Shown: one piece after another, positions 1,736-12,082 of the stretch | Layout of the letters: the number at the start of each line of letters is the position of its first letter | Position numbering within the stretch: the stretch's first letter is position 1 | Assembly (NCBI GenBank): GCA_020445765.1 | Contig: JAGRFY010000028.1 | Span: 1 to 64,000 of the forward strand | From: Rhodocyclaceae bacterium | Lineage (GTDB): Bacteria; Pseudomonadota; Gammaproteobacteria; Burkholderiales; Rhodocyclaceae | Reading direction: 5' to 3' | DNA: 64,000 nt | The notes under the pieces: generated by a model | Told to the model about the DNA's origin: nothing | Seen by the model: only the letters and a program-made list of their open reading frames with translations | The model's database searches: none | Program-made: the position numbers and the translations under genes

Positions 1736-2623
1736 ATGCTTGACTCAGGCATTCGTCGCACGCTGTGCCATTCGATCGCCTGCATCGCGATCGCCACGCT
1801 GGCGTCGCCGGCCCTGGCCACCACCGGCGCGGTCGGCCAGCCGGCCGACGGCGGCACCCTCGAGATCACGATTCGGACCGAGAAGGGCAGTTCGTCGCTG
1901 CAGAAATTCTCGATCGAAGTGGTCAAGAACGAGAGCATCGAATCGAAGACCCAGAAGATCGTGAACGTGATCAACGGCCTGACCGAGGATGGCAAGAATC
2001 CGAAGAAGCCGAAGGATCGGGACGGCAAGGAGGAAGACACCAAGTACATCGCGCAGGTGAATCCGAAGAACAAGCAGTTGTTCGATGTCGTCCTGCGCTC
2101 CGAACGGAACATTCCCAGGACCACGGCACTGAATTTCAGCTTCCGCGGACCGGTCGAGCAGGGGCGGGCAGTGGCGGCGCTCAACCCGGGGGATACGCAG
2201 TCGATCTACGTGCTGCACAACCCCACCGATCCGCTGACCGGGCTCGATCCGCAGGGCAATCCGGCGGTGCTCGCGCTGGCCACCGACAAGGGCGACTTCC
2301 TGTTCGAGACTGGCGCGGGTGACCTGGCCGCGGGTGTGTTCGAGAGTTTCGTGGCCAGTGTCCTGCGCGGCTACGGCGGCGCCTACGATCCGTCGGCCTT
2401 CACGTTTGCGCTCGATCTGACGCCGGAGGTCGGTTTCGCCTACCTGGACTGGACCGACACCGCATTCGACATCAGCTATGGCTTCACCCACAGCGAGCCC
2501 GGTTCGAATTCGTTCATTCCGGAACCCGCTTCGCTGGCCCTGTCGGCCCTGGGCCTGGCGGTATTGGGCTGGTCCGGCAGATCGGGGCGCTCGCGGACCG
2601 GCGGCGGACCGGCGCCCTCCTGA
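1736..2623 (+). CDS. PEP-CTERM sorting-domain secreted protein
   Basis: The product has 295 residues. It has an N-terminal Sec signal (about residues 1-29, ending ASPALA) and a long charged, Lys/Glu-rich region with no recognised domain. The C-terminal tripartite signal consists of IPEP, a hydrophobic helix (SLALSALGLAVLG) and a short Arg-rich tail. In this family the tail is removed by an exosortase and the protein reaches the cell surface or exopolysaccharide matrix. No exosortase or EPS gene is in the window, so the machinery lies elsewhere. A strong AAAGGAGA Shine-Dalgarno precedes the ATG. The passenger region resembles nothing I can name. Confidence 0.85.
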   Translation: MLDSGIRRTLCHSIACIAIATLASPALATTGAVGQPADGGTLEITIRTEKGSSSLQKFSIEVVKNESIESKTQKIVNVINGLTEDGKNPKKPKDRDGKEEDTKYIAQVNPKNKQLFDVVLRSERNIPRTTALNFSFRGPVEQGRAVAALNPGDTQSIYVLHNPTDPLTGLDPQGNPAVLALATDKGDFLFETGAGDLAAGVFESFVASVLRGYGGAYDPSAFTFALDLTPEVGFAYLDWTDTAFDISYGFTHSEPGSNSFIPEPASLALSALGLAVLGWSGRSGRSRTGGGPAPS

Positions 2624-2717: not shown

Positions 2718-3431
2718 TCAATTGGCCTGGGTCGATGCCTGTGCCGGCGTGGCGGCGATGGTGTCGCCCGTGGCGGTCGCCGTCGCCACCGGTTTCGGCG
2801 TCTCGACCAGCATCACGGTCTCGACCGAAAGCCCGTCCTCGGCCGCCTTCAGCGCCAGATTGGCATCGAAGAAGTTCCGGTCGTGGATCTTGCCGGCCGC
2901 CTCATCGACATGGGCACGGGTTTCCTGCAGCGGCATCAGCAACTGGGTGTAGCCGATGTCCTCCTCGGCGAGCTTCAACTGCTCGATCGCCTCCTGGGTC
3001 TTGCCGTTCTTCAGGTGCTGCTCGCCCTGGTCGAGGTGCGCGGCCTTCTCCGGCGTCCCGACGTAATCCTGGTCGACGACGAGTTGTCCGTCGATCGAGA
3101 TCAGGTTGGTGTCGCCGCTCTGGCCGACCCCCGTCGCCTTCTCGTCGGTGGCGGCCTTGGCGAGCGACTGCTGGGCCTGCTGGACCAGTTCCCGCGCCTG
3201 ATCGGTGTCGCCGTTGAACAGGGCGACCCGCGCCGATCGCACGGCGCGCATGGCGTCGAAGCCGTCTTGCGAGACCTGCAGATTCATTTCCTTCTGCTGC
3301 TCGGCCTGGCGGGCCTTGACCGGTGCCGAATCCGGCACGCCGGCGATCGCGCCGAGCGGGGCGAAGCCGGCGCTGGCGAGGGCGGTGGCGGCGAACAGGC
3401 CGATGATGCTATTGCGAAGAACGTTGCTCAT
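2718..3431 (-). CDS. yfdX: YfdX family periplasmic protein, copy 1
   Basis: The product has 237 residues, with an N-terminal Sec signal (about residues 1-31) followed by the helical YfdX domain. Family marks include DGFDAMRAVRSARVALFNGD, NLISIDGQLVV and EDIGYTQLLMPLQETRAHVDEA. E. coli YfdX belongs to the EvgA acid/multidrug-resistance regulon and is a periplasmic helical protein of unclear activity. A close paralogue lies at 6738-7445. Both start codons sit in the same leader, GGAGCCAGATCATGA. A sigma-54 promoter at 3537-3551 and paired upstream sites at 3616-3649 precede this copy. Confidence 0.88.
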   Translation of the reverse strand: MSNVLRNSIIGLFAATALASAGFAPLGAIAGVPDSAPVKARQAEQQKEMNLQVSQDGFDAMRAVRSARVALFNGDTDQARELVQQAQQSLAKAATDEKATGVGQSGDTNLISIDGQLVVDQDYVGTPEKAAHLDQGEQHLKNGKTQEAIEQLKLAEEDIGYTQLLMPLQETRAHVDEAAGKIHDRNFFDANLALKAAEDGLSVETVMLVETPKPVATATATGDTIAATPAQASTQAN

Positions 3432-3536
3432 GATCTGGCTCCTTGCACCCGGTTTCGGATATCAGGGTGGTCGCGACGGGGTGTCGGGTCGCCTGGCCAT
3501 CCTTCGGCTTTTTCGGTTGAGCCTGCCAATTGATTC

Positions 3537-3551
3537 GCATCGACCGTGCCA
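3537..3551 (-). promoter_or_regulatory. Sigma-54 promoter of yfdX copy 1
   Basis: On the minus strand this reads TGGCAC-GGTCG-ATGC, against the consensus TGGCAC-N5-TTGC. The -24 GG and -12 GC are exactly 10 bp apart. The predicted start is near 3525, giving a leader of about 94 nt to yfdX1. The -12 element differs from consensus by one base. Confidence 0.75.
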
Positions 3552-3615
3552 ACCGTTCAACTCGTTGTTAACAAACAAAATTACGTCGATTCGCGATGTC
3601 ATGGGGCGGCACTTT

Positions 3616-3649
3616 GGCGGCTATAACCACCAGCCCGGCGAAATCCACC
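3616..3649. promoter_or_regulatory. Paired upstream activator sites for yfdX copy 1
   Basis: Site 1 (3616-3631) is GGCGGCTATAACCACC, a near-palindrome centred about 98 bp upstream of the predicted start. Site 2 (3637-3649, GGCGAAATCCACC) lies 21 bp further out, about two helical turns away. Site 1 differs by a single base from site 1 of yfdX copy 2 (7629-7644). Pairs of dimer sites at about -100 are typical of enhancer-binding proteins. Confidence 0.65.
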
Positions 3650-3733
3650 AGTGACCGCGCCTGCGGCAGGCACATCACGGCTGGGTGGATCGTGGCGCGC
3701 CGGGTGGGCCGCGCCAACGCGAGCGCGGTCCGG

Positions 3734-3767
3734 AAAATGCCGAACCCGCCACAGCGTGGCGGGTTCG
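3734..3767 (-). terminator. Terminator of the patatin-bdhA-sel1 operon
   Basis: A perfect 12-bp stem (CGAACCCGCCAC/GTGGCGGGTTCG) with a 3-nt loop is followed, after GC, by TTTT in minus-strand reading. It lies about 40 bases past the sel1 stop and matches the end of the operon. Confidence 0.75.
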
Positions 3768-3804
3768 GGCGGTATCGGTGCGGCGGGCGCCAGCCTGCGG
3801 CGGA

Positions 3805-4515
3805 TCATCCCGGGCTGGCTGCGGCCGGCCGGGGGGCGGCTGGGCTCGTCGTGGGCGGCGATCCCGGCATCGCAGGCGGCGCGGCAGGCTTGTCCGTCTG
3901 AACCAACTGCCTGGCCCGCTGCTCGCCGTCGGTCTGCTGGGCGACCGACAGCTGTCCAGCCTGGTCGTCCCGGCGCCGTGCCGCCAGCGAATCGCCGAGG
4001 GTTGCGGCCGCCGCGTAGTCGGCATAGGCCGCCACCGGATCAGCGGCGCCCCCGAGACCGACCGCATTCATGTCACCGAGGTGGCGCATGGCTTCAGCGT
4101 CGCCGCCGACGGCGGCCTGCCGAAGCCAGTGACGGGCGGCGCCGAGATCCTGTACCTGATCGTGGCCGGCGAGATAGAGCAGACCGAGTTGGCGCGCGGC
4201 ACGGATGTTGCCGGCCTCGGCGGCCTGGCTCAGCCACTTGACCGCCTTGCCGGCGTCGCGCCCGACGCCGTCGCCATACTGGTACATGGCCCCGAGGAAA
4301 TAGGCGGCGGTGGCGTCGCCGTGCGCTGCCAGCCGCTCGAACAGCGGCCTCGCCTCGGCGGCATGGCCGCCACGGTATTCGCCGATGGCCGTCGCTTCGG
4401 CGCGGGCGTCGTTGTTGCCGCCGGAATTTGTCACGCGGCCGGCGGCGAAGGCGAGCGGGATCAAGAGCGCAATGAAGAGCATGATTGCCTGTCGGTTGAT
4501 GTGGTCGTTTGTCAT
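3805..4515 (-). CDS. Sel1-repeat (tetratricopeptide-like) envelope protein
   Basis: The product has 236 residues. A hydrophobic N-terminal segment (about 11-25) acts as signal or anchor. Three to four Sel1-like repeats follow, with repeated AAYFLGAMYQYGDGVGRD, AARQLGLLYLAG and AMRHLGDMNAVGLGG patterns. The tail is disordered and rich in Pro/Ala. Sel1 repeats mediate protein-protein contacts, often in envelope signalling, and the partner here is unknown. It is the last gene of the operon begun by the patatin gene: the bdhA stop is 48 bases upstream and a strong terminator follows. It should share the sigma-54 promoter at 6559-6573. Confidence 0.8.
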   Translation of the reverse strand: MTNDHINRQAIMLFIALLIPLAFAAGRVTNSGGNNDARAEATAIGEYRGGHAAEARPLFERLAAHGDATAAYFLGAMYQYGDGVGRDAGKAVKWLSQAAEAGNIRAARQLGLLYLAGHDQVQDLGAARHWLRQAAVGGDAEAMRHLGDMNAVGLGGAADPVAAYADYAAAATLGDSLAARRRDDQAGQLSVAQQTDGEQRARQLVQTDKPAAPPAMPGSPPTTSPAAPRPAAASPG

Positions 4516-4563
4516 GGTCGATCTCCCGTTGATGACGTCGGCGTGTCGCCGCGCACCGCAGTG

Positions 4564-5346
4564 CTACTTCATGCACCAGCCATGGCTGACGATGATCGAC
4601 TGGCCGGTCAGTGCGTTGTTGCCGAAGCCGGCCAGGAACACCGCGACGTCGGCGACGTCCTGCATCGTCGTGAAGCGCTGATCCACGGTCTCGCCGAGCA
4701 TCACCCGGCTGACCACCTCCTGTTCGCTGATACCGAGTTCCTTCGCCTGTTCGGGAATCTGTCGGTCGACCAGAGGCGTGCGGACGAAGCCGGGGCAGAT
4801 CACGTTGGCGCGCACGCCGTGGGCCGCCCCTTCCTTCGCTGCCACCCGCGCCAGCCCTAGGATCGCGTGCTTCGCGGCGACGTAGGCGGACTTCAGCGCC
4901 GATGCCTCGTGGCTGTGCACCGAGCCCATGTAGATCAGCGAACCGGAACCCTGCGCGTACATGTGGCGGACCGCCGCGCGCGTCGTCAGGAAGGCGCCTT
5001 CGACGTGGATCGCCATCAGCCGGCGGAAATCGGCGAGCGGGAACGACTCGATCGGGTGCACCCGCTGGATGCCGGCGTTGGACACCAGCGTGTCGATGCG
5101 GCCGAAGCGGCGTGCCACCGAATCGATGCCTTCGTCCACCGCCGCTTCGTCGGTGACGTCCATGTGCAGCACGATCGCTTCCGGGCCGCCGGCGGCAGCA
5201 ATGCGCTCGACCGTGCGGTGGGCGCCGTCGAGGTCCACATCGGCGATCGCGACGCGAGCACCTTCGGCGGCGAAGGAAAGGGCGATCTGGCGGCCGATGC
5301 CGGAGCCGCCACCGGTGACGACGGCGACCTGGTTGTCGAGTTTCAT
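4564..5346 (-). CDS. bdhA: D-3-hydroxybutyrate dehydrogenase (SDR)
   Basis: The product has 260 residues and is a classical short-chain dehydrogenase that oxidises D-3-hydroxybutyrate to acetoacetate with NAD+, a step in polyhydroxybutyrate breakdown. The coenzyme motif TGGGSGIG lies at about residues 12-19, NAG at the usual place, catalytic Ser in MGSVHS and the YVAAK pair. The C-terminus GQSIIVSHGW is characteristic of 3-hydroxybutyrate dehydrogenases and separates it from FabG-type reductases. The start is MKLDN, since the upstream frame extension is not SDR-like. It lies 37 bases after the patatin gene. bdhA-patatin pairing is known in Legionella (bdhA-patD). Confidence 0.9.
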   Translation of the reverse strand: MKLDNQVAVVTGGGSGIGRQIALSFAAEGARVAIADVDLDGAHRTVERIAAAGGPEAIVLHMDVTDEAAVDEGIDSVARRFGRIDTLVSNAGIQRVHPIESFPLADFRRLMAIHVEGAFLTTRAAVRHMYAQGSGSLIYMGSVHSHEASALKSAYVAAKHAILGLARVAAKEGAAHGVRANVICPGFVRTPLVDRQIPEQAKELGISEQEVVSRVMLGETVDQRFTTMQDVADVAVFLAGFGNNALTGQSIIVSHGWCMK

Positions 5347-5383
5347 GATGAATCTCCTGTGCAAGTGAGTCGAGCGCGAAGCG

Positions 5384-6523
5384 TCACGGAACGCCCGCGC
5401 GGTTGGTGTCGAACACGGCGATGCCCTGGTCGGCACGGGGTGGCTGGCGCCAGATCTGGCTTCGCAGCGTGCGGTGCGCATCGCCGAGCCCGGCGCGCCA
5501 GTGGTCGCCCATTGCGCGACGCGAGAATTCGTAGTCCTTGTTGGGGCCGTCGTAGGCCGCGCGCCGGTAGATCAGGTGCACCACCGAAAATGCGTTGCGT
5601 GGTCGCAACGCACACAACTCGGCGATTCCGGCCTCGTGCATTGCCTCCGCCGGCAGCCGGTCGGCGAGGCGGCCGATCGCCAGCCGGAGGGCGTGCATGG
5701 CCCGGTAGTGGTCGGTGTTGAGGCGGGTGCGACTGGAGAAGACGATGTCCTTGCGGCGCTCCTCGACTTCGATCAGCGTCTGCGGAAACGGCCCGAGGGC
5801 GCTGAACAGATCGACCTGGAAGACCAGCGTGCGGTCGGCTTCGGCCTGATCGAGGACGTGGGCGAGCGGCGTGTTCGATACCAGCCCGCCATCCCAGAAG
5901 TACTCGCCGTCGATCTCGATCGGCGGAAAGCCCGGCGGCAGCGCACCGCTGGCCATCACGTGCTCCGGGCCGATCTGCATGCGACGGGAATCGAAGAAGC
6001 TGAAATTGCCGGTACGGACATTGACCGCGCCGAGGCTCAGCCGCACCGGACCGTCGTTGATGCGAGCGAAGTCCACATGCTCGAGCAGGGTGCGGCGCAG
6101 CGGGGCGGTGTCGTAGTGGCTCAGCGCCTGCGGCGAACCGGGCAGGGCGAACCATGCCGAGGGCAGGCGCGGGCGAAAGAAGCCGGCGATGCCGCCGGCG
6201 ACCGCCCATGCACTGCTCATCAGTCCGAACGCCCGCCGCGAGGCGGTGTCGTCGAGGGCCAGCGCGGAGAGACCGTCGTCGCGGGTGATGCGCTGCCAGA
6301 ACGAACGCAGCCGCTCGAGGCGATGCGCCGGTGGATTGCCGGCGAGGATCGCGGCGTTGATCGCGCCGATCGAGATGCCGGCGATCCAACCCGGCTCGAC
6401 GCCGGCTTCGTGCAGCGCTTCATAGACGCCCGCCTGATAGGCGCCGAGGGCGCCGCCACCCTGCAGCACGAGGGCGGTCTGATCGAACAAGGCGTCCGGC
6501 GACAGGCTTTCGGGGGCATTCAT
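5384..6523 (-). CDS. Patatin-like phospholipase (DUF3734 type)
   Basis: The product has 379 residues. The patatin fold is marked by the oxyanion loop GGGALGAY, the nucleophile elbow GISIG and the catalytic Asp in DGGLVSNTP. This predicts a Ser-Asp lipid acyl hydrolase in the cytoplasm or at the inner membrane. The C-terminal ~120 residues match the DUF3734 extension, including the YEFSRRAM segment. The MNAPES start at 6523 is chosen because AGGAG precedes it and because the sigma-54 promoter at 6559-6573 would begin transcription near 6547, excluding the longer starts. It is the first gene of a patatin-bdhA-sel1 operon. The substrate, membrane lipid or polymer-granule lipid, is not evident. 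Confidence 0.88.
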   Translation of the reverse strand: MNAPESLSPDALFDQTALVLQGGGALGAYQAGVYEALHEAGVEPGWIAGISIGAINAAILAGNPPAHRLERLRSFWQRITRDDGLSALALDDTASRRAFGLMSSAWAVAGGIAGFFRPRLPSAWFALPGSPQALSHYDTAPLRRTLLEHVDFARINDGPVRLSLGAVNVRTGNFSFFDSRRMQIGPEHVMASGALPPGFPPIEIDGEYFWDGGLVSNTPLAHVLDQAEADRTLVFQVDLFSALGPFPQTLIEVEERRKDIVFSSRTRLNTDHYRAMHALRLAIGRLADRLPAEAMHEAGIAELCALRPRNAFSVVHLIYRRAAYDGPNKDYEFSRRAMGDHWRAGLGDAHRTLRSQIWRQPPRADQGIAVFDTNRAGVP

Positions 6524-6558
6524 CAGATCGATCTCCTGGAGGATTCGCTGATGCATTG

Positions 6559-6573
6559 GCAGCATCCATGCCA
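6559..6573 (-). promoter_or_regulatory. Sigma-54 promoter of the patatin-bdhA-sel1 operon
   Basis: On the minus strand this reads TGGCAT-GGATG-CTGC, with the invariant GG and GC exactly 10 bp apart. Two bases differ from consensus. The predicted start near 6547 gives a 24-nt leader to the MNAPES start codon. Confidence 0.62.
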
Positions 6574-6625
6574 AGGAAAAACTTGAGTGAGAACAGTTGC
6601 TTGTGAGAATCTGGCGCGGGCGGAT

Positions 6626-6664
6626 GGTGGCTTTGCGCCGGTCAGGCCGGTGGATATCCACCGG
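6626..6664. promoter_or_regulatory. Paired upstream activator sites for the patatin operon
   Basis: The stronger site (6647-6664) is the perfect 18-bp palindrome CCGGTGGATATCCACCGG. A weaker site, GGTGGCTTTGCGCC, lies at 6626-6639, 23 bp away. Their centres are about 108 and 85 bp upstream of the predicted start, one helical turn closer than at the yfdX promoters. The inner GGTGG/CCACC arms match the sites at 3616, 7629 and 11422. Confidence 0.65.
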
Positions 6665-6687
6665 TCGCCGGCAAGGGCCCCGACGCG

Positions 6688-6714
6688 AAAACGGCCGGGC
6701 AGCGGCCCGGCCGT
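6688..6714 (-). terminator. Terminator of yfdX copy 2
   Basis: A perfect 10-bp stem (ACGGCCGGGC/GCCCGGCCGT) with an AGCG loop is followed by TTTT on the minus strand, 24 bases past the yfdX2 stop. It separates yfdX2 transcripts from the activator sites of the patatin operon. Confidence 0.7.
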
Positions 6715-6737
6715 GTCGGCGTCGCGGATGCGGCGGG

Positions 6738-7445
6738 TCAATTCACCTTGCTGGGAGGCTGCGCCGGTGTCGTCGCGGTGCTGGCCGCAGTCGCGGCATT
6801 GGCCTGCTTGGGTACTTCGACCAGCATCACGGTCTCGACGGCAAGCCCTTCCTCGGCACCCTTGAGCGCAAGATTGGCGTCGAAATAGTCGCCTTTCTGG
6901 ATCATCCGATCGGCATCGTCCACGTGGCTGCGAGTCTCCTTCAGCGGCATCAGCAGCCGCGTGTAGCCGATGTCTTCCTCGGTGAGCTTCAGCTGCTCGA
7001 TGGCCTCCTGGGTGTTGCCGTCCTTGAGGTGCCGTTCGCCGCGGTTGAGGTGGGCGGCCTTGTCCGGTGACCCGATGTAGCCTTCGCCGACGACGAGCTG
7101 GCCGTCGATCGAGATCAGGTTGGGGTCGCCGCTCCGGCTCGTGCCGACGGCCTTTTCGTCGGTGGCCGCCTTGGTCAGCGCCTGCTGCGCCTGTCCGACG
7201 TACGCCTTCGCGTGCTCGGTGTCGCCGTTGAACAGCGCCACGCGGGCGGCGCGTACGTTGCGCATGGCTTCGAAGCCGTCGCGCGAGAGATGGACGTTGA
7301 TCGGCTGCTGCTTGCCGGCATGGGCCGATCCGGCCGACGCCGAGCCAGCGGCGCCGGCCATCGCCCTTAGCGGGGCGAGGCCGGCGCCGGCGAGCGCGGT
7401 GGCGGCGAACAGGCCGATGACGGTGTTGCGAAGGATCGTGTTCAT
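6738..7445 (-). CDS. yfdX: YfdX family periplasmic protein, copy 2
   Basis: The product has 235 residues and is a close paralogue of the protein at 2718-3431. It has the same N-terminal signal (FAATALAGAGLAPL), the same DGFEAMRNVRAARVALFNGD and NLISIDGQLVVGE motifs and the same EEDIGYTRLLMPLKETRSHVDDA region. The C-terminal tails differ. The leader GGAGCCAGATCATGA is identical to that of copy 1. The sigma-54 promoter at 7550-7564 and paired sites at 7629-7662 match copy 1 in type and distance, so the duplication carried its regulatory region. The periplasmic chaperone-like role is inferred from the family only. Confidence 0.88.
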   Translation of the reverse strand: MNTILRNTVIGLFAATALAGAGLAPLRAMAGAAGSASAGSAHAGKQQPINVHLSRDGFEAMRNVRAARVALFNGDTEHAKAYVGQAQQALTKAATDEKAVGTSRSGDPNLISIDGQLVVGEGYIGSPDKAAHLNRGERHLKDGNTQEAIEQLKLTEEDIGYTRLLMPLKETRSHVDDADRMIQKGDYFDANLALKGAEEGLAVETVMLVEVPKQANAATAASTATTPAQPPSKVN

Positions 7446-7549
7446 GATCTGGCTCCTGGCACCCGGTTTCTGGGATCAGGCCGCCGGCGACGGGGTGTCG
7501 GGTCGCCAGGCCTTCGTTCGGCTATTGCTGCCTTGCCGATGGTGCCGTT

Positions 7550-7564
7550 GCAGCGCCCGTGCCA
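7550..7564 (-). promoter_or_regulatory. Sigma-54 promoter of yfdX copy 2
   Basis: On the minus strand this reads TGGCAC-GGGCG-CTGC, with exact GG-N10-GC spacing and a perfect -24 hexamer. The predicted start is near 7538, about 93 nt before the yfdX2 start codon, almost the same leader length as for copy 1. Confidence 0.75.
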
Positions 7565-7628
7565 TTTATGCAACCATCTGAAACGAAACGATTGTTGTGC
7601 CGAACTGTGGACTCGGGTGGCCGCGGCT

Positions 7629-7662
7629 GGCGGTTATAACCACCACTGTCGGCAGAACCACC
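7629..7662. promoter_or_regulatory. Paired upstream activator sites for yfdX copy 2
   Basis: Site 1 (7629-7644) is GGCGGTTATAACCACC, a 16-bp palindrome with one mismatch, centred about 98 bp upstream of the predicted start. Site 2 (7651-7662, GGCAGAACCACC) lies 22 bp further out. The arrangement copies that of yfdX copy 1. The SH3-like gene at 7741 is divergent, but I see no -24/-12 element on its side. Confidence 0.65.
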
Positions 7663-7740
7663 GGTGCCATGTCGCGCGGCCGCCGCATGTTCCGGGGAGC
7701 AGCAACGCCGCGGGAGCGGCCATCGACGAAGGGAGTCGCC

Positions 7741-8397
7741 ATGCGTGTCGCAATCCGTGCCCTGTTGCTTGCCGGCTGCTGGCCGGGGATCGTGCTCGCG
7801 CAGGACGTGCCGCCCGGGCCCGAGCAGGGTGGACCGCTCAACTGGACCGTGAGCGGCAATGTCGGCGCCGTCGACGTCCGCCGGCAGGCGGCAGCGGATG
7901 CGCCGGTCGTAGGAAGGTTCGCGCCGGGCACGTTGCTGGACAACCTCGGATGCCTGCGGCATGAGGGCCATGTCTGGTGCGATGTCCAGCGCTTCGGGGG
8001 CGGGCTGCGCGGCTTCGTTTCGGCAAGGTATCTGGCGCCGGTGCGCTCGTCGCAGGGCGAGGTCATCGTCGGGCCCGACGATTCGGCGCTGCGGGCCGGT
8101 CTCGGCGAATTCGACGCCACCGGCGAGATCCAGTGCGCGTACGGAGGTGGGCAAGCGCTGCGCAAATGCCGGTTCGGCGTCGCGCGGGGCGCCGGCGGCT
8201 ACGCCACGATCGTGGTCGATCTGCCGAACGGTCGGCGCAGATCCATCTTCTTTCGCCTCGGCGTGGCGATGGGGGCCGATACCAGTCAGGCCGACGGCTA
8301 TCCCGAATTCCACGCCAGCCGGGTCGGCGACCACCATGCGATCGGCATCGGCGACGAACGCTACGAGGTTCCGGCTGCGCTGATCGCCGGCGATTGA
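7741..8397 (+). CDS. Secreted bacterial SH3-like domain protein
   Basis: The product has 218 residues with a clear Sec signal ending at VLAQ (about residue 20). Residues ~33-95 form a bacterial SH3-like domain: VDVRRQAAADAPVVGRFAPGTLL is followed by CLRHEGHVWCDVQ and the GFVSARYL end. These domains often bind cell-wall peptide. The C-terminal half (about 100-218) has a GEIQCAYGGG...CRFGVARG segment with two cysteines found in similar uncharacterised proteins. GAAGGGAG precedes the ATG. It is divergent from yfdX copy 2 and faces the response-regulator gene tail to tail. The function is unknown. Confidence 0.75.
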   Translation: MRVAIRALLLAGCWPGIVLAQDVPPGPEQGGPLNWTVSGNVGAVDVRRQAAADAPVVGRFAPGTLLDNLGCLRHEGHVWCDVQRFGGGLRGFVSARYLAPVRSSQGEVIVGPDDSALRAGLGEFDATGEIQCAYGGGQALRKCRFGVARGAGGYATIVVDLPNGRRRSIFFRLGVAMGADTSQADGYPEFHASRVGDHHAIGIGDERYEVPAALIAGD

Positions 8398-8436
8398 ACC
8401 GGCCTTGTCCGAGTCCAGCCGACGCGGCTGGGCCGT

Positions 8437-9831
8437 TCAGCTTCGACTGTCGCTGCCGAGGCCGTATTTCTGAATGCGGTAGCGCAGTGTCTCGCGCGTC
8501 GTGCCGAGGGCGCGCGCCGTGGCCATCACGTTGAAATCGTTGCGCTGGAGGGCGGTCTGGATGATGAAGCGGTCCATTTCGTCGAGCGCCATCGACCCGT
8601 CCAGCGGCAACCGAATCCAGTCGCCGCAGCCTTGCGCGCCGTCGTCGCCGGCGCCGGCCGGGCGCGGCAGGCCAAGCCATTCGGCCGGCAACTCGGCGCT
8701 GGCCGACAGCAGCACGCTGCGCTCGATCACGTTGCGCAATTCACGCACGTTGCCGGGCCAGTCGTAGCCGGCGAGGGCGGACCACACGGCGTCCGGCACG
8801 TGCGTCACGTGCTTGCCGGCCTGCGTGTTGAATTCGCGCACCATCGACTCGACCAGGGCCGGGATGTCCTCCTTGCGTTCGCGCAGGCTGGGCAGCCGTA
8901 CCTCGAACACCGAAATGCGGTGGTAGAGATCGCTGCGAAAGCTGCCTTCAGCGGCCGCGCGGCGCAGGTCGCGGTTCGACGCCGCGACCAGCCGCACGTC
9001 GACCTCGATCTCTTGCTCGCCGCCGACGCGGCGGAAGCGTTGGTCCTCGAGCGCTTTCAGCAACTTGGCCTGCAGGCCCGGATCGAGTTCGCCGATCTCG
9101 TCGAGGAACAACGTACCGCCGTCGGCCTGTTCCAGCAGCCCCCGGTGACGGCCCTTGGCGCCGGTGAAGGCTCCCGGTTCGTGGCCGAAAAGTTGCGATT
9201 CGAGCAGATCCTTCGGGAATGCCGCGCAATTGACGTCGACGAAGGGACCGTCGCTGCGCTCGCCCGAGTAGTGCAGGATCTTCGCGGTGAGGCCCTTGCC
9301 GGTGCCGGTCTCTCCCGACAGCAGCACGCTCGAGATCGGCACCCCGGTGAGCTGGGCCAGCATCGTGCGCACGCGGGCGGCTGCCGGGCTCGGGCCGACG
9401 AAGGCCTCCGGCGAAAAACGTCGCGCCTCGTGTTCGGTGCTGTCGGCGATGCGCTGGCGGGCGCGGGCGCCGCGGGTGGCGGCGGCGATCGTGAGGTCGA
9501 GCTTGTGGGTGTCGAGGGGCTTGGCGAGGAAGTCCAGCGCGCCGAGTTCGGCGGCGCGCTCGATGTCGCGGCGGGTGCCGTAGCCGGACAGAAAGATCCA
9601 CTCGCCGTGGCCGCCTGCAGCGCGCACCTCCTCGAGAAAGTCGAGGCCATTGCCGTCCGGCAGGTTCATGTCGGACAGCACGATGGTCGGCGACATGCCG
9701 AGTTCGACGATCAGGTGCCGGGCGTCGGCGATCGTCTCGGACACCGTCACCTGCCAGCCGCCGCGCTCGAAGCGCCGCTTCAGCTCCGAGCCCAGTAGCC
9801 GCTCGTCCTCGATGATGCTCATCGTACGCAT
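8437..9831 (-). CDS. Sigma-54-dependent response regulator (NtrC family)
   Basis: The product has 464 residues. The receiver domain (about 1-120) has the acidic pair E8-D9, phospho-acceptor Asp54 and Lys104. The AAA+ domain (about 150-385) has Walker A GETGTGKG, an intact GAFTGA loop for sigma-54 contact, Walker B TLFLDEIGE and the arginine-finger region. A Fis-type HTH (MATARALGTTRETLRYRI) ends the protein. It therefore opens sigma-54 promoters on phosphorylation. The start lies 5 bases after the kinase stop, so the pair is one operon. It is the natural candidate for binding the paired palindromes at 3616, 6626, 7629 and 11422. It is not obviously PrsR or NtrC itself. Confidence 0.92.
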   Translation of the reverse strand: MRTMSIIEDERLLGSELKRRFERGGWQVTVSETIADARHLIVELGMSPTIVLSDMNLPDGNGLDFLEEVRAAGGHGEWIFLSGYGTRRDIERAAELGALDFLAKPLDTHKLDLTIAAATRGARARQRIADSTEHEARRFSPEAFVGPSPAAARVRTMLAQLTGVPISSVLLSGETGTGKGLTAKILHYSGERSDGPFVDVNCAAFPKDLLESQLFGHEPGAFTGAKGRHRGLLEQADGGTLFLDEIGELDPGLQAKLLKALEDQRFRRVGGEQEIEVDVRLVAASNRDLRRAAAEGSFRSDLYHRISVFEVRLPSLRERKEDIPALVESMVREFNTQAGKHVTHVPDAVWSALAGYDWPGNVRELRNVIERSVLLSASAELPAEWLGLPRPAGAGDDGAQGCGDWIRLPLDGSMALDEMDRFIIQTALQRNDFNVMATARALGTTRETLRYRIQKYGLGSDSRS

Positions 9832-9836
9832 GATGT

Positions 9837-11294
9837 TCAGTCTCCGCAGGGCAGCGTGACGACGGTCCTGGCGCCGCCATCGCGACTGCGTCCGAGATGG
9901 ATCTCGCCGCCCGCCGATCGCACCAGCCGCTGGATGATCGACATGCCGAGTCCGGTGCCGTCGGCCTTGCTCGTCTGGAACGGACGGATGCCGCGACTGA
10001 GCAAGGCTTCCGGATAGCCGGGGCCGTTGTCGGCGACTGTCAGCGTGAGCTGGTCGCCGGCGCGCTCGATGTCGATGCTGATGACGCCGGGGGCGTCGCC
10101 GATCGCTTCCGAGGCATTGCGCAGGAGGTTGATCAGCACCTGTCGCAGGGTGTCGCGCGGCAGCATGCAGGTGGTGTCGTCGACGCGGGCGCGGATCTCG
10201 ATCGGGTCCGGCACCTGGTAGCGGAGCAGGCGCACGATGTCGTCGACCAGCTGGCGGGTGTCGACCTGCACCGGCGTTTCGAGATGGGCGCGACCCTGCT
10301 CGAGCATGCGGTTGAGCAGGCCGGTGACCCGTTCCATCTCGTCGGCGATCAGGCGCACGCGATCCTGTTCGTCGCCGGGCGGCAGCTCTTCTTCCATGTT
10401 GTGCAGTGCAGCCGAGATGCCCGAGATCGGATTGCGCAGTTCGTGCGCAAGGCGCGCCGCGAACTCGCCGACCGCGGCCAGGCGTGCGCCGTTCTCCAGT
10501 TCGGCCTGCTGGCGCAACAGCGTCTCGGAGGCGGCACGCACCTGCGATTCGAGCGCGCTGGCGTGGGCCTCCGCCTCGCTGCTGGCGGCCCGCAGGCGGG
10601 CGGCCATGTCGTTGTAGCGCTTATAGACATCGGCCAGCGGATCGTCCGATGGCACTGGCGCGACGGCAGAAAAGTCGAGATTGCCGACGTTTTCGAGCAG
10701 GCGCGACAGGCGATCGATCGAGCGGAATCCGCGACGCTGCACGCCGATCATCAGTCCGAGGGCGAGCAGGGGCGTCAGCACCATGGCGCTGATCGCGACT
10801 GCCGTCTCGACGTCGGCCGCGCGCCGGCTCGCAACCACCACCTCGTGCTGCAGGCGGTTCTCCTGGTCGAGGGTGCGCCGGATGATCGCCAGCGCGGCGA
10901 GCAGGCCGGTCTTGGCGTCGACCCGCGAATCGTCGAGGAAGCTCTTCGCCTGTCGCAGGTTGGCCGGCGTCTGCGGATGAAGCTGGGCGCCGCGGCGCAC
11001 CAGCGCATCGAGCGCGGCGCTGATGCGATCGACCTGGGCCGGATCGGGGTCGGTCGCGGAGCGGAAGTGATGGATCAACAGTTCCTGGATGTCGATGTTC
11101 ACCTGCTGCAGGTCCCGCAGGTGCGACATGTGGCGTTCGAGCGGGTCGAGTCGCTGCGACGACTGGGCGGCGGTGTAGGCGAGGAAGCCGAGCGACAACA
11201 CGACGGCGCCGACCGCCAGGAACACCGCGAAGCGCGATGGCTGCAGCAGGGTCTTCTGGATTGCGCCGGCGCGTGGCTGGGCGGCAGTACTCAT
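9837..11294 (-). CDS. Membrane sensor histidine kinase, partner of the NtrC-type regulator
   Basis: The product has 485 residues. A transmembrane helix (about 24-45) is followed by a periplasmic helical sensor region (about 46-180), a second transmembrane helix near IAVSAISAMVLTPLLALGL, a HAMP-like linker and a coiled coil. The transmitter has the H-box HELRNPISG, N-box NLLRNASEA, G1 DNGPGYP and G2 GTGLGMSI, all intact. The sensor region resembles four-helix-bundle domains; the signal is unknown. The start at 11294 has GGAGAGGAC just upstream and fits the sigma-54 promoter at 11345-11359. The longer upstream frame is excluded by that promoter. Confidence 0.9.
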   Translation of the reverse strand: MSTAAQPRAGAIQKTLLQPSRFAVFLAVGAVVLSLGFLAYTAAQSSQRLDPLERHMSHLRDLQQVNIDIQELLIHHFRSATDPDPAQVDRISAALDALVRRGAQLHPQTPANLRQAKSFLDDSRVDAKTGLLAALAIIRRTLDQENRLQHEVVVASRRAADVETAVAISAMVLTPLLALGLMIGVQRRGFRSIDRLSRLLENVGNLDFSAVAPVPSDDPLADVYKRYNDMAARLRAASSEAEAHASALESQVRAASETLLRQQAELENGARLAAVGEFAARLAHELRNPISGISAALHNMEEELPPGDEQDRVRLIADEMERVTGLLNRMLEQGRAHLETPVQVDTRQLVDDIVRLLRYQVPDPIEIRARVDDTTCMLPRDTLRQVLINLLRNASEAIGDAPGVISIDIERAGDQLTLTVADNGPGYPEALLSRGIRPFQTSKADGTGLGMSIIQRLVRSAGGEIHLGRSRDGGARTVVTLPCGD

Positions 11295-11344
11295 GTCCTC
11301 TCCATCGTTGCCCGCCTCGACCGAGGCTGTCCGATAAGGCGTTC

Positions 11345-11359
11345 GCAACGCCTGTGCCA
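11345..11359 (-). promoter_or_regulatory. Sigma-54 promoter of the kinase-regulator operon
   Basis: On the minus strand this is a perfect consensus: TGGCAC-AGGCG-TTGC. The predicted start near 11333 gives a leader of about 39 nt to the kinase start codon. A sigma-54 regulator whose own operon uses sigma-54 implies positive feedback. Confidence 0.82.
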
Positions 11360-11421
11360 AGCCGCGTCGCCCGCGATTACCGCAGATACGGGCAGGCTGG
11401 CCGTGATCGGTTGGTTGGTCT

Positions 11422-11457
11422 GGTGGATTTGAACCGCTTGCGTGGTTGATATCAACC
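11422..11457. promoter_or_regulatory. Shared activator sites between two divergent sigma-54 promoters
   Basis: The perfect palindrome GGTTGATATCAACC (11444-11457) and the related GGTGGATTTGAACC (11422-11435) lie 22 bp apart. From the rightward start (about 11545) their centres are near -95 and -117. From the leftward start (about 11333) they are near -117 and -96. The pair is thus almost equidistant from both promoters and could serve both. Confidence 0.68.
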
Positions 11458-11519
11458 GTCTGCGACGCCTTCTCGTCCAGATTCCAGAAAAATGGATGAG
11501 TTTTCAAAGAGGTGACATC

Positions 11520-11534
11520 TGGCACGTGGATTGC
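11520..11534 (+). promoter_or_regulatory. Sigma-54 promoter of the DUF1269 gene
   Basis: The sequence TGGCAC-GTGGA-TTGC is a perfect match to the -24/-12 consensus. The predicted start near 11545 gives a leader of about 43 nt to the ATG at 11588. Confidence 0.85.
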
Positions 11535-11587: not shown

Positions 11588-12082
11588 ATGTACGAACTGC
11601 TCGTGATTCCCTACGACGATGTTTCCGAAGCCGAAGCCGCCCGCGAACAGGTGGTGACACTCGCCAGCCGCTATCTCGTCTATGTGGCCGATGCCGTGGT
11701 CGCGACCGGCGACGGCCGGCATCACATTCGTCTTCAGCATCTCGTCGACCAATGGCCGCCGGAGCCTTCCGACCGCCCGGTCTGGGGCACGCTGGCCGGG
11801 CTGTTTCAGCGACACGAACTGGTCGCCGCATCGGCCCGTTCCGGCTTCGGCAGCCTCGAGACCTTCGGACTGGACGACGCGTTCATGGAACAGATGGCGA
11901 CCCTGCTCGAATCCCACGCCGCGGCCTTGTGCGTCCTGGCCCGGAAGACGAATTCCGAGCACGTCATCGAGCGTCTCGGCCGCCGCTGCGAGGACGTGCT
12001 GCGCACCGGGCTTCAGCGGCCGGTGGCGAACGAATCCAAGGGCCCGCGTGGCGTCGGACTCGAGAACCGGGCGCTGGCTTGA
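11588..12082 (+). CDS. DUF1269 family protein lacking the glycine-rich segment
   Basis: The product has 164 residues. The N-terminal half shows the DUF1269 pattern: a short strand, then a Glu/Ala-rich helix and VYVADAVVATGDGRHHIRLQ. The C-terminal half shows LDDAFMEQMATLLESHAAALCVLARK and a final VLRTGL strand. The Gly-rich hydrophobic stretch that usually sits between the halves is missing, and only WGTLAGLF remains, so this copy is probably soluble. CCAGGAGG precedes the ATG. It is divergent from the kinase gene with its own perfect sigma-54 promoter. The function of the family is unknown. Confidence 0.78.
   Translation: MYELLVIPYDDVSEAEAAREQVVTLASRYLVYVADAVVATGDGRHHIRLQHLVDQWPPEPSDRPVWGTLAGLFQRHELVAASARSGFGSLETFGLDDAFMEQMATLLESHAAALCVLARKTNSEHVIERLGRRCEDVLRTGLQRPVANESKGPRGVGLENRALA

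Follow-up and report, generated by a model that had tools for sequence, protein, structure and literature searches.

The stretch of DNA analysed here, hereafter the window, comprises 64,000 nucleotides from a Rhodocyclaceae bacterium (positions 1 to 64,000, forward strand, of contig JAGRFY010000028.1, assembly GCA_020445765.1). It has a G+C content of 66.6% and forms part of contig C180; the genome measures 4.84 Mb and comprises 210 contigs. Close to its start is a cluster of genes encoding two YfdX proteins, a patatin-like phospholipase, a 3-hydroxybutyrate dehydrogenase (BdhA), a Sel1-repeat protein and a DUF1269 protein, together with a sensor histidine kinase and an NtrC-type response regulator. 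A first-pass annotation, made from the sequence alone, had proposed that these genes form an undescribed regulon under five sigma-54 promoters. Its gene names are right by Pfam and NCBIfam:

2718..3431, minus strand: yfdX1, putative periplasmic YfdX protein (Pfam YfdX, 117.2 bits vs. a gathering score of 26.6)
3805..4515, minus strand: Sel1-repeat protein, encoded third in the patatin operon (Pfam Sel1, 57.8 bits; 48-bp gap from bdhA)
4564..5346, minus strand: bdhA, 3-hydroxybutyrate dehydrogenase (NCBIfam NF009931, 372.8 vs. 340; TIGR01963, 323.7 vs. 307.05)
5384..6523, minus strand: patatin-like phospholipase carrying DUF3734, encoded first in the operon (Pfam Patatin, 111.2 bits; DUF3734, 107.4 bits)
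6738..7445, minus strand: yfdX2, putative periplasmic YfdX protein (Pfam YfdX, 113.9 bits vs. 26.6; sequence match to solved YfdX structures)
7741..8397, plus strand: SH3-domain protein (Pfam)
8437..9831, minus strand: NtrC-type response regulator with receiver, AAA+ domain and Fis-type helix-turn-helix (HTH) (Pfam Response_reg, Sigma54_activat and HTH_8; GAFTGA present in the translation)
9837..11294, minus strand: sensor histidine kinase with helical sensor region, HAMP (23.2 bits, cut-off 25), HisKA and HATPase (Pfam; AlphaFold2 model of residues 1-265)
11588..12082, plus strand: DUF1269 protein (Pfam DUF1269, 38.9 bits)

Given the gaps of 37 and 48 bp between them, patatin, bdhA and sel1 are likely to form an operon; the kinase and regulator genes are separated by 5 bp.

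All five of the proposed -24/-12 elements, with GG-N10-GC spacing, are present, and all read TGGCAYNNNNNNTGC (TGGCAYN6TGC). The T of TGG, from which the distances to the palindrome centres are counted, stands at 3551, 6573, 7564 and 11359 on the minus strand and at 11520 on the plus strand. In the following list the enhancer sites, which are putative, have no strand:

3537..3551, minus strand: sigma-54 promoter of yfdX1, TGGCACN6TGC
3616..3631: enhancer palindrome of yfdX1, GGTGGN6CCGCC, centre at -72
3637..3649: weak distal half-site of yfdX1, at chance level as a palindrome
6559..6573, minus strand: sigma-54 promoter of patatin-bdhA-sel1
6626..6639: proximal enhancer site of patatin, centre at -59
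6649..6662: distal enhancer palindrome of patatin, GGTGGATATCCACC, centre at -82
7550..7564, minus strand: sigma-54 promoter of yfdX2
7629..7644: enhancer palindrome of yfdX2, GGTGGTTATAACCGCC, centre at -72
7651..7662: weak distal half-site of yfdX2, at chance level as a palindrome
11345..11359, minus strand: sigma-54 promoter of the kinase-regulator operon
11422..11435: common enhancer site GGTGGATTTGAACC (-69 for the kinase, -91 for DUF1269)
11444..11457: common enhancer site GGTTGATATCAACC (-91 for the kinase, -69 for DUF1269)
11520..11534, plus strand: sigma-54 promoter of the DUF1269 gene

Predicted enhancer palindromes are phased at each of the five promoters, with a centre of 6 bp at the yfdX sites and of 4 bp at the others. 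The first-pass annotation had assigned two sites, 21-23 bp apart, to every promoter. The sites of patatin, with 23 bp, and the pair common to the kinase and DUF1269, with 22 bp, conform to this. Those of yfdX1 and yfdX2 do not: the second site is a half-site about 18 bp from the good one, with an arm score of 7.7-8.0 (8.7 when the centre may have other lengths), both values being within chance. Since the kinase and DUF1269 have one pair of sites in common, there are four enhancer regions rather than five. The spacing of 22-23 bp between paired sites corresponds to about two helical turns, and -59 differs from -70 by one turn.

The window was compared with 200 first-order Markov versions of itself. 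Joint sites, i.e. a -24/-12 element together with a palindrome, number five in the window vs. a simulated mean of 0.03 and maximum of 1, and strict -24/-12 sites number seven vs. a mean of 1.36 and maximum of 5. The arm scores at the five promoters range from 9.6 to 10; of 20,000 places picked at random outside the cluster, 0.26% attain a score of 9.7 and 0.35% one of 9.5. Across the 4.84 Mb of the genome the joint pattern has four matches, all inside the cluster, the fifth promoter, that of the kinase, being missed because its enhancer left arms read GGTTG and GGTTC. The earlier remark that no others of the same quality occur elsewhere in the window is thus borne out, and pairs that match the joint pattern are confined to the cluster instead of occurring at a random rate genome-wide.

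It should be noted that single motifs, whether a half-site or a -24/-12 element, prove little alone. The genome scans, which covered strict -24/-12 elements at set spacings, give 167 strict sites genome-wide vs. 83 for the reversed pattern. Patterns that add a half-site to the -24/-12 element have 13, 18 and 4 matches in the same genome (reversed: 4, 13 and 0), of which 3, 3 and 2 fall in the cluster and 10, 15 and 2 outside it. These numbers outside the cluster speak for a reading in which the five promoters and their palindromes are chance strings in a genome of 66.6% G+C. The excess of joint sites over simulation and the confinement of the joint pattern to the cluster speak against it, and it is already contradicted by conservation in 11 genomes (see below), so that we give it a negligible probability. 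As for a wider regulon in the same genome, all 23 of the half-site places outside the cluster were fetched and none scores above 8.7; the same is true of 17 half-site places, picked by eye, from three other genomes. A set of 60 strict sites was drawn from 40 fetched stretches as well as from the window and three neighbourhoods. Of the 14 promoters then known, 13 score at least 9.4 in this set; the best non-members reach 8.7.

The kinase is rare. Counting its own genome, it was found in 3 of 121 genomes of the family (E 1e-40), in 5 of 395 in a larger draw from the family (E 1e-50), in 4 of 399 from the order (E 1e-60, the other three at 32-35% identity) and in 3 of 398 drawn from the phylum (E 1e-60). 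With the kinase of genome G743 as the query, 6 of the 29 genomes of that genome's family, which belongs to another class, have a match at E 1e-80. No plasmid relatives were found at E 1e-40. A kinase scan of genome contigs returned 51 loci, among which L007 is the sole ortholog; the rest are 24-40% identical, mostly over the kinase core.

Eleven kinase-bearing genomes from two classes provide a catalogue of 34 promoters, which precede yfdX or YfdX-linked genes, DUF1269, patatin, sel1 and the kinase. The same promoter and enhancer arrangement is found before orthologous or related genes in 10 genomes besides that of the window. Among the 34 best sites, 13 have a 4-bp centre, all with GGT and ACC, and 21 a 6-bp centre, with GGTGG in 20; GGT is present in 33 of the 34. 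Promoters are found before yfdX, the kinase and DUF1269 in G104, which is of the same genus as the window; before sel1, yfdX, the kinase and DUF1269 in G060; before the kinase, yfdX and DUF1269 in G946; and before the kinase and DUF1269 in G928. In an alignment of the kinase/DUF1269 intergenic region from five genomes, the longest invariant runs (5 columns) lie within both palindromes and both -24 elements.

In G928, which represents a second genus, yfdX and a run of patatin, bdhA, acetoacetate decarboxylase, sel1 and FAD enzyme genes lie about 20 kb from the kinase, with the same sites before yfdX and patatin. The run (L153:4354-9621, the last gene being a FAD monooxygenase) looks like an operon and could represent a route from polyhydroxybutyrate (PHB) to acetone. 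In the genus of G743, two genomes carry a tandem array of five genes, and GGTGGAAATAACCACC stands before each of these at -69 or -70; by reading of the sequence, two of the five are YfdX-like and three consist of a repeat only. Two YfdX genes are present in G743 itself, and a single one in each of three further genomes of its genus. The repeat-only genes (L120:7012-7497, 5912-6583 and 3329-3919; L121 likewise) encode small, secreted-looking proteins with about three copies of a repeat of about 30 residues, VPNNxAGPxGAxKEHDIWLA; each is under the same promoter type, and in the adjacent genes this repeat stands ahead of the YfdX-like part.

A joint search was carried out in 24 genomes: the 11 kinase-bearing ones and 13 kinase-less ones, of which 3 are of the window's genus (no kinase match at E 1e-50) and 10 of another genus (10 of its 23 kinase-less genomes, no match at E 1e-80). 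Among a total of 44 matches, 36 fall in the kinase-bearing genomes; the reversed-pattern control gives 2 across all 24. With an arm score of at least 9 and the observed distances (-69 to -74, -81/-82 and -91), 28 sites remain, and these occur in 11 of 11 kinase-bearing vs. 0 of 13 kinase-less genomes. All 11 regulators have the same HTH recognition helix, GTTRETLRYRI, while they are as little as 67% identical overall. Shown in silico are the promoters and palindromes, how they are spaced and conserved, and their link to the genes for the kinase and regulator.

These results, namely the 11 of 11 vs. 0 of 13 genomes, the conserved architecture and the identical HTH, support the earlier proposal of a sigma-54 regulon probably controlled by the kinase and NtrC-type regulator of the cluster. 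We put the probability at roughly 0.8 that this is a local regulon run by its own two-component system, with YfdX, patatin-BdhA-Sel1 and DUF1269 as its outputs. The signal, the phosphorylation, the binding and the activation are inferred. The helical sensor bundle of the membrane kinase would receive a signal, and the kinase would then phosphorylate the NtrC-type regulator. Regulator dimers would bind the GGTGG/CCACC-type palindromes, which lie along the same side of the DNA, with one or two helical turns between them and centres at -59/-82, -69/-91 or -69 to -72 relative to the -24 element. The bound regulator would contact and activate RNA polymerase-sigma-54, perhaps with bending by IHF at some promoters. 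The outputs would be the YfdX proteins, the patatin-BdhA-Sel1 operon and DUF1269 and, in the window's family, also the system itself.

Several findings weigh against such a regulon or narrow it. Before filtering, the joint search has 8 matches in 5 of the 13 kinase-less genomes, none of them of the window's genus; an arm score of at least 9 alone leaves 30 kinase-bearing vs. 3 kinase-less matches; the distance ranges were chosen with the first 14 promoters already in view, -74 being added later from G928; and kinase-less status depends on the E cut-offs of 1e-50 (three congeners) and 1e-80 (ten genomes). One catalogued promoter (L063, 13694) scores 8.0, which is less than the 8.7 of the best non-member. 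No strict site stands before the kinase in L118-L122, the five g363 genomes, so that self-regulation is not universal, and in one of the five, G1163, the kinase frame contains an in-frame TAA. On the output side, L120 and L121 each have, among their five tandem genes, three that look repeat-like and lack a YfdX domain (the one that was scanned has no Pfam hit), two g363 proteins fall just below the Pfam YfdX cut-off, and acetoacetate decarboxylase occurs in one genome only (G928). An IHF-like motif, allowed at most one mismatch, is found at 21 of the 34 promoters vs. 2.6 expected from shuffles, a suggestive excess, and at one of the five in the window; it is present at 15 of 15 promoters in one genus with paralogous promoters and at 6 of 19 elsewhere.

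The genome also encodes 22 other strong sigma-54 activator domains. One of these could bind the palindromes at promoters that are otherwise real, with the kinase-regulator pair merely a target. We consider this improbable, given that the phased sites track the kinase gene among the 24 genomes, lie near the kinase in genomes with different neighbours, and are conserved together with the recognition helix.

Distant relatives of the kinase (L064-L067, 29-35% identity), the promoters of which were left out of the catalogue, have partly different neighbours, such as an RND pump gene in L064 and a YflT/DUF1269 protein in L067. In L066, which is of the same order, the regulator is 58% identical, and upstream of the pair lie a YfdX gene (47.3 bits, cut-off 26.6) and a sub-threshold DUF1269 gene (20.7 bits, cut-off 26.9). 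In the very distant L067, where the regulator is 49% identical, GGTTTATATAAACC-type palindromes precede the kinase. The pairs of L066 and L067 suggest that the kinase-regulator system is an old family. At L066:7500-13722, the DUF1269 (sub-cut-off), YfdX (412 aa), kinase and regulator genes are adjoined by a gene for a ClC-type chloride channel. At L067:10470-11300, three GGTTTATATAAACC-like palindromes lie upstream of a TGGCAAGATGTTTGCA site. At L064:5406-8603, a gene for an AcrB-type efflux pump is divergent from the kinase-regulator pair, and L065 has a similarly long divergent open reading frame.

In an AlphaFold2 model of residues 1-265, the N-terminal region of the kinase is all-helical and forms a confident bundle (mean pLDDT 75; 88-94 in the bundle blocks), which is presumably periplasmic, between two membrane helices. 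The best Foldseek rows are fragments of NarQ (E 1e-3 to 4e-2, TM 0.3-0.5, about 15% identity); as these scores are weak, the sensor is described here as a helical bundle only.

The regulator and kinase fall below the NCBIfam cut-offs for the named systems compared. The AtoC and AtoS models score 338.8 vs. 714 and 139.9 vs. 646, respectively, NtrC 338.4 vs. 558.6, and GlrR (GlrK-GlrR, QseEF) 249.2 vs. 763; for PrsK-PrsR, the values are 314.3 vs. 502.6 for the regulator and 89 vs. 300 for the kinase (TIGR02915, TIGR02916). The regulator is likewise below the cut-offs for ZraR and NtrX. NtrC/AtoC-type systems resemble the cluster in having a receiver-AAA+(GAFTGA)-Fis HTH regulator beside a HisKA kinase, enhancer palindromes and -24/-12 promoters, whereas the cluster has its own palindrome, GGTGG/CCACC, and YfdX targets. 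QseE-QseF/GlrK-GlrR, a sigma-54 envelope system, also couples a helical-bundle sensor kinase to a sigma-54 regulator, and QseE-QseG (9m08_C) appears as a weak Foldseek row (E 0.23), but the best fold rows of the cluster's sensor are those of NarQ. PrsK-PrsR is the sigma-54 two-component pair of PEP-CTERM systems, and a PEP-CTERM protein does adjoin the cluster (window 1736-2623; Pfam).

With the transmissible stress-tolerance locus the cluster shares YfdX proteins, here also in two copies, and a stress context; the cluster differs in its sigma-54/NtrC-type control, and HdeD, ClpK and the small heat-shock protein are absent from the nine cluster proteins scanned with Pfam. The YfdX proteins of that locus are described as needed for heat resistance and as predicted chaperones (PMC8290217), and Klebsiella YfdX is reported to be a periplasmic acid-stress chaperone (PMC6394985). 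The most likely role of the regulon, held at somewhat less than even odds, is a response to envelope or acid/oxidant stress, in which YfdX would guard periplasmic proteins and patatin and BdhA would mobilise PHB; in one relative, acetoacetate decarboxylase would dispose of acid. A parallel is conceivable with E. coli yfdX, which is adjoined by oxc/frc in the gene order tabulated in PMC5493296 and lies beside an oxalyl-CoA decarboxylase gene. We hold it rather unlikely that the fullest version applies, i.e. an envelope response in at least two proteobacterial classes in which a NarQ-like sensor commands YfdX, in one genus arrays of YfdX-like/repeat proteins, and in some lineages PHB mobilisation with acetoacetate decarboxylation as a proton or acid sink.

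The pairing of patatin with bdhA is already known. In Pseudomonas, HbcR controls the genes for 3-hydroxybutyrate use. The cluster resembles this system and Legionella bdhA-patD in having patatin beside bdhA and a sigma-54 activator tied to 3-hydroxybutyrate, and differs in that Sel1 is joined to these genes, that YfdX and DUF1269 are co-regulated with them and that the regulator is a two-component response regulator. HbcR has been described as an activator of the sigma-54 type responding to (R)-3-hydroxybutyrate (PMC10482368), and a Legionella bdhA-patD mutant is defective in PHB breakdown, for which bdhA-patD is needed (PMC4549902, citing Aurass et al. 2009). These precedents would fit a metabolic regulon that senses carbon state or 3-hydroxybutyrate/acetoacetate and mobilises PHB under sigma-54 as with HbcR, YfdX being secondary. 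Patatin-bdhA is indeed found in two of the five examined neighbourhoods of the window's family and is followed by acetoacetate decarboxylase in G928, but the partner that recurs across the two classes is YfdX and not patatin-bdhA, and the helical sensor region is presumably periplasmic while PHB is cytoplasmic. A metabolic regulon is thus unlikely.

As the first-pass annotation had supposed, no description of this regulon was found in the open-access literature. The same literature returned nothing on YfdX with sigma-54, with DUF1269 or with acetoacetate decarboxylase, nor on patatin and 3-hydroxybutyrate dehydrogenase with sigma-54; a search with the motif letters and regulator words also returned nothing, which says little. 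In the consulted part of PMC5493296, which names both YfdX and rpoN, RpoN promoters are excluded, and excerpts of a general study of sigma-54 function (PMC3162934) contain neither YfdX nor patatin. Taken together, the comparisons point to a conserved, real and apparently undescribed sigma-54 regulon, whose site is well defined and whose main target is poorly understood.

What YfdX does physiologically is unsettled, and the YfdX studies that we met concern enterobacteria, where the gene is under EvgA or RcsB. YfdX genes that answer to one sigma-54 two-component system in a separate lineage offer a clean handle on this question: as the regulator, its likely binding sites and a local target set can be named, the inducing signal would tell much about the purpose of YfdX. 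The regulon would also link a presumed periplasmic protection to the use of a storage polymer under one switch.

Two minor observations concern yfdX2. The SH3-domain gene diverges from the yfdX2 enhancer region, and none of the 40 best -24/-12 elements listed belongs to it. Over about 40-60 residues YfdX2 also matches, at low E-values, designed SAKe proteins of the PDB, which may reflect a common short motif.

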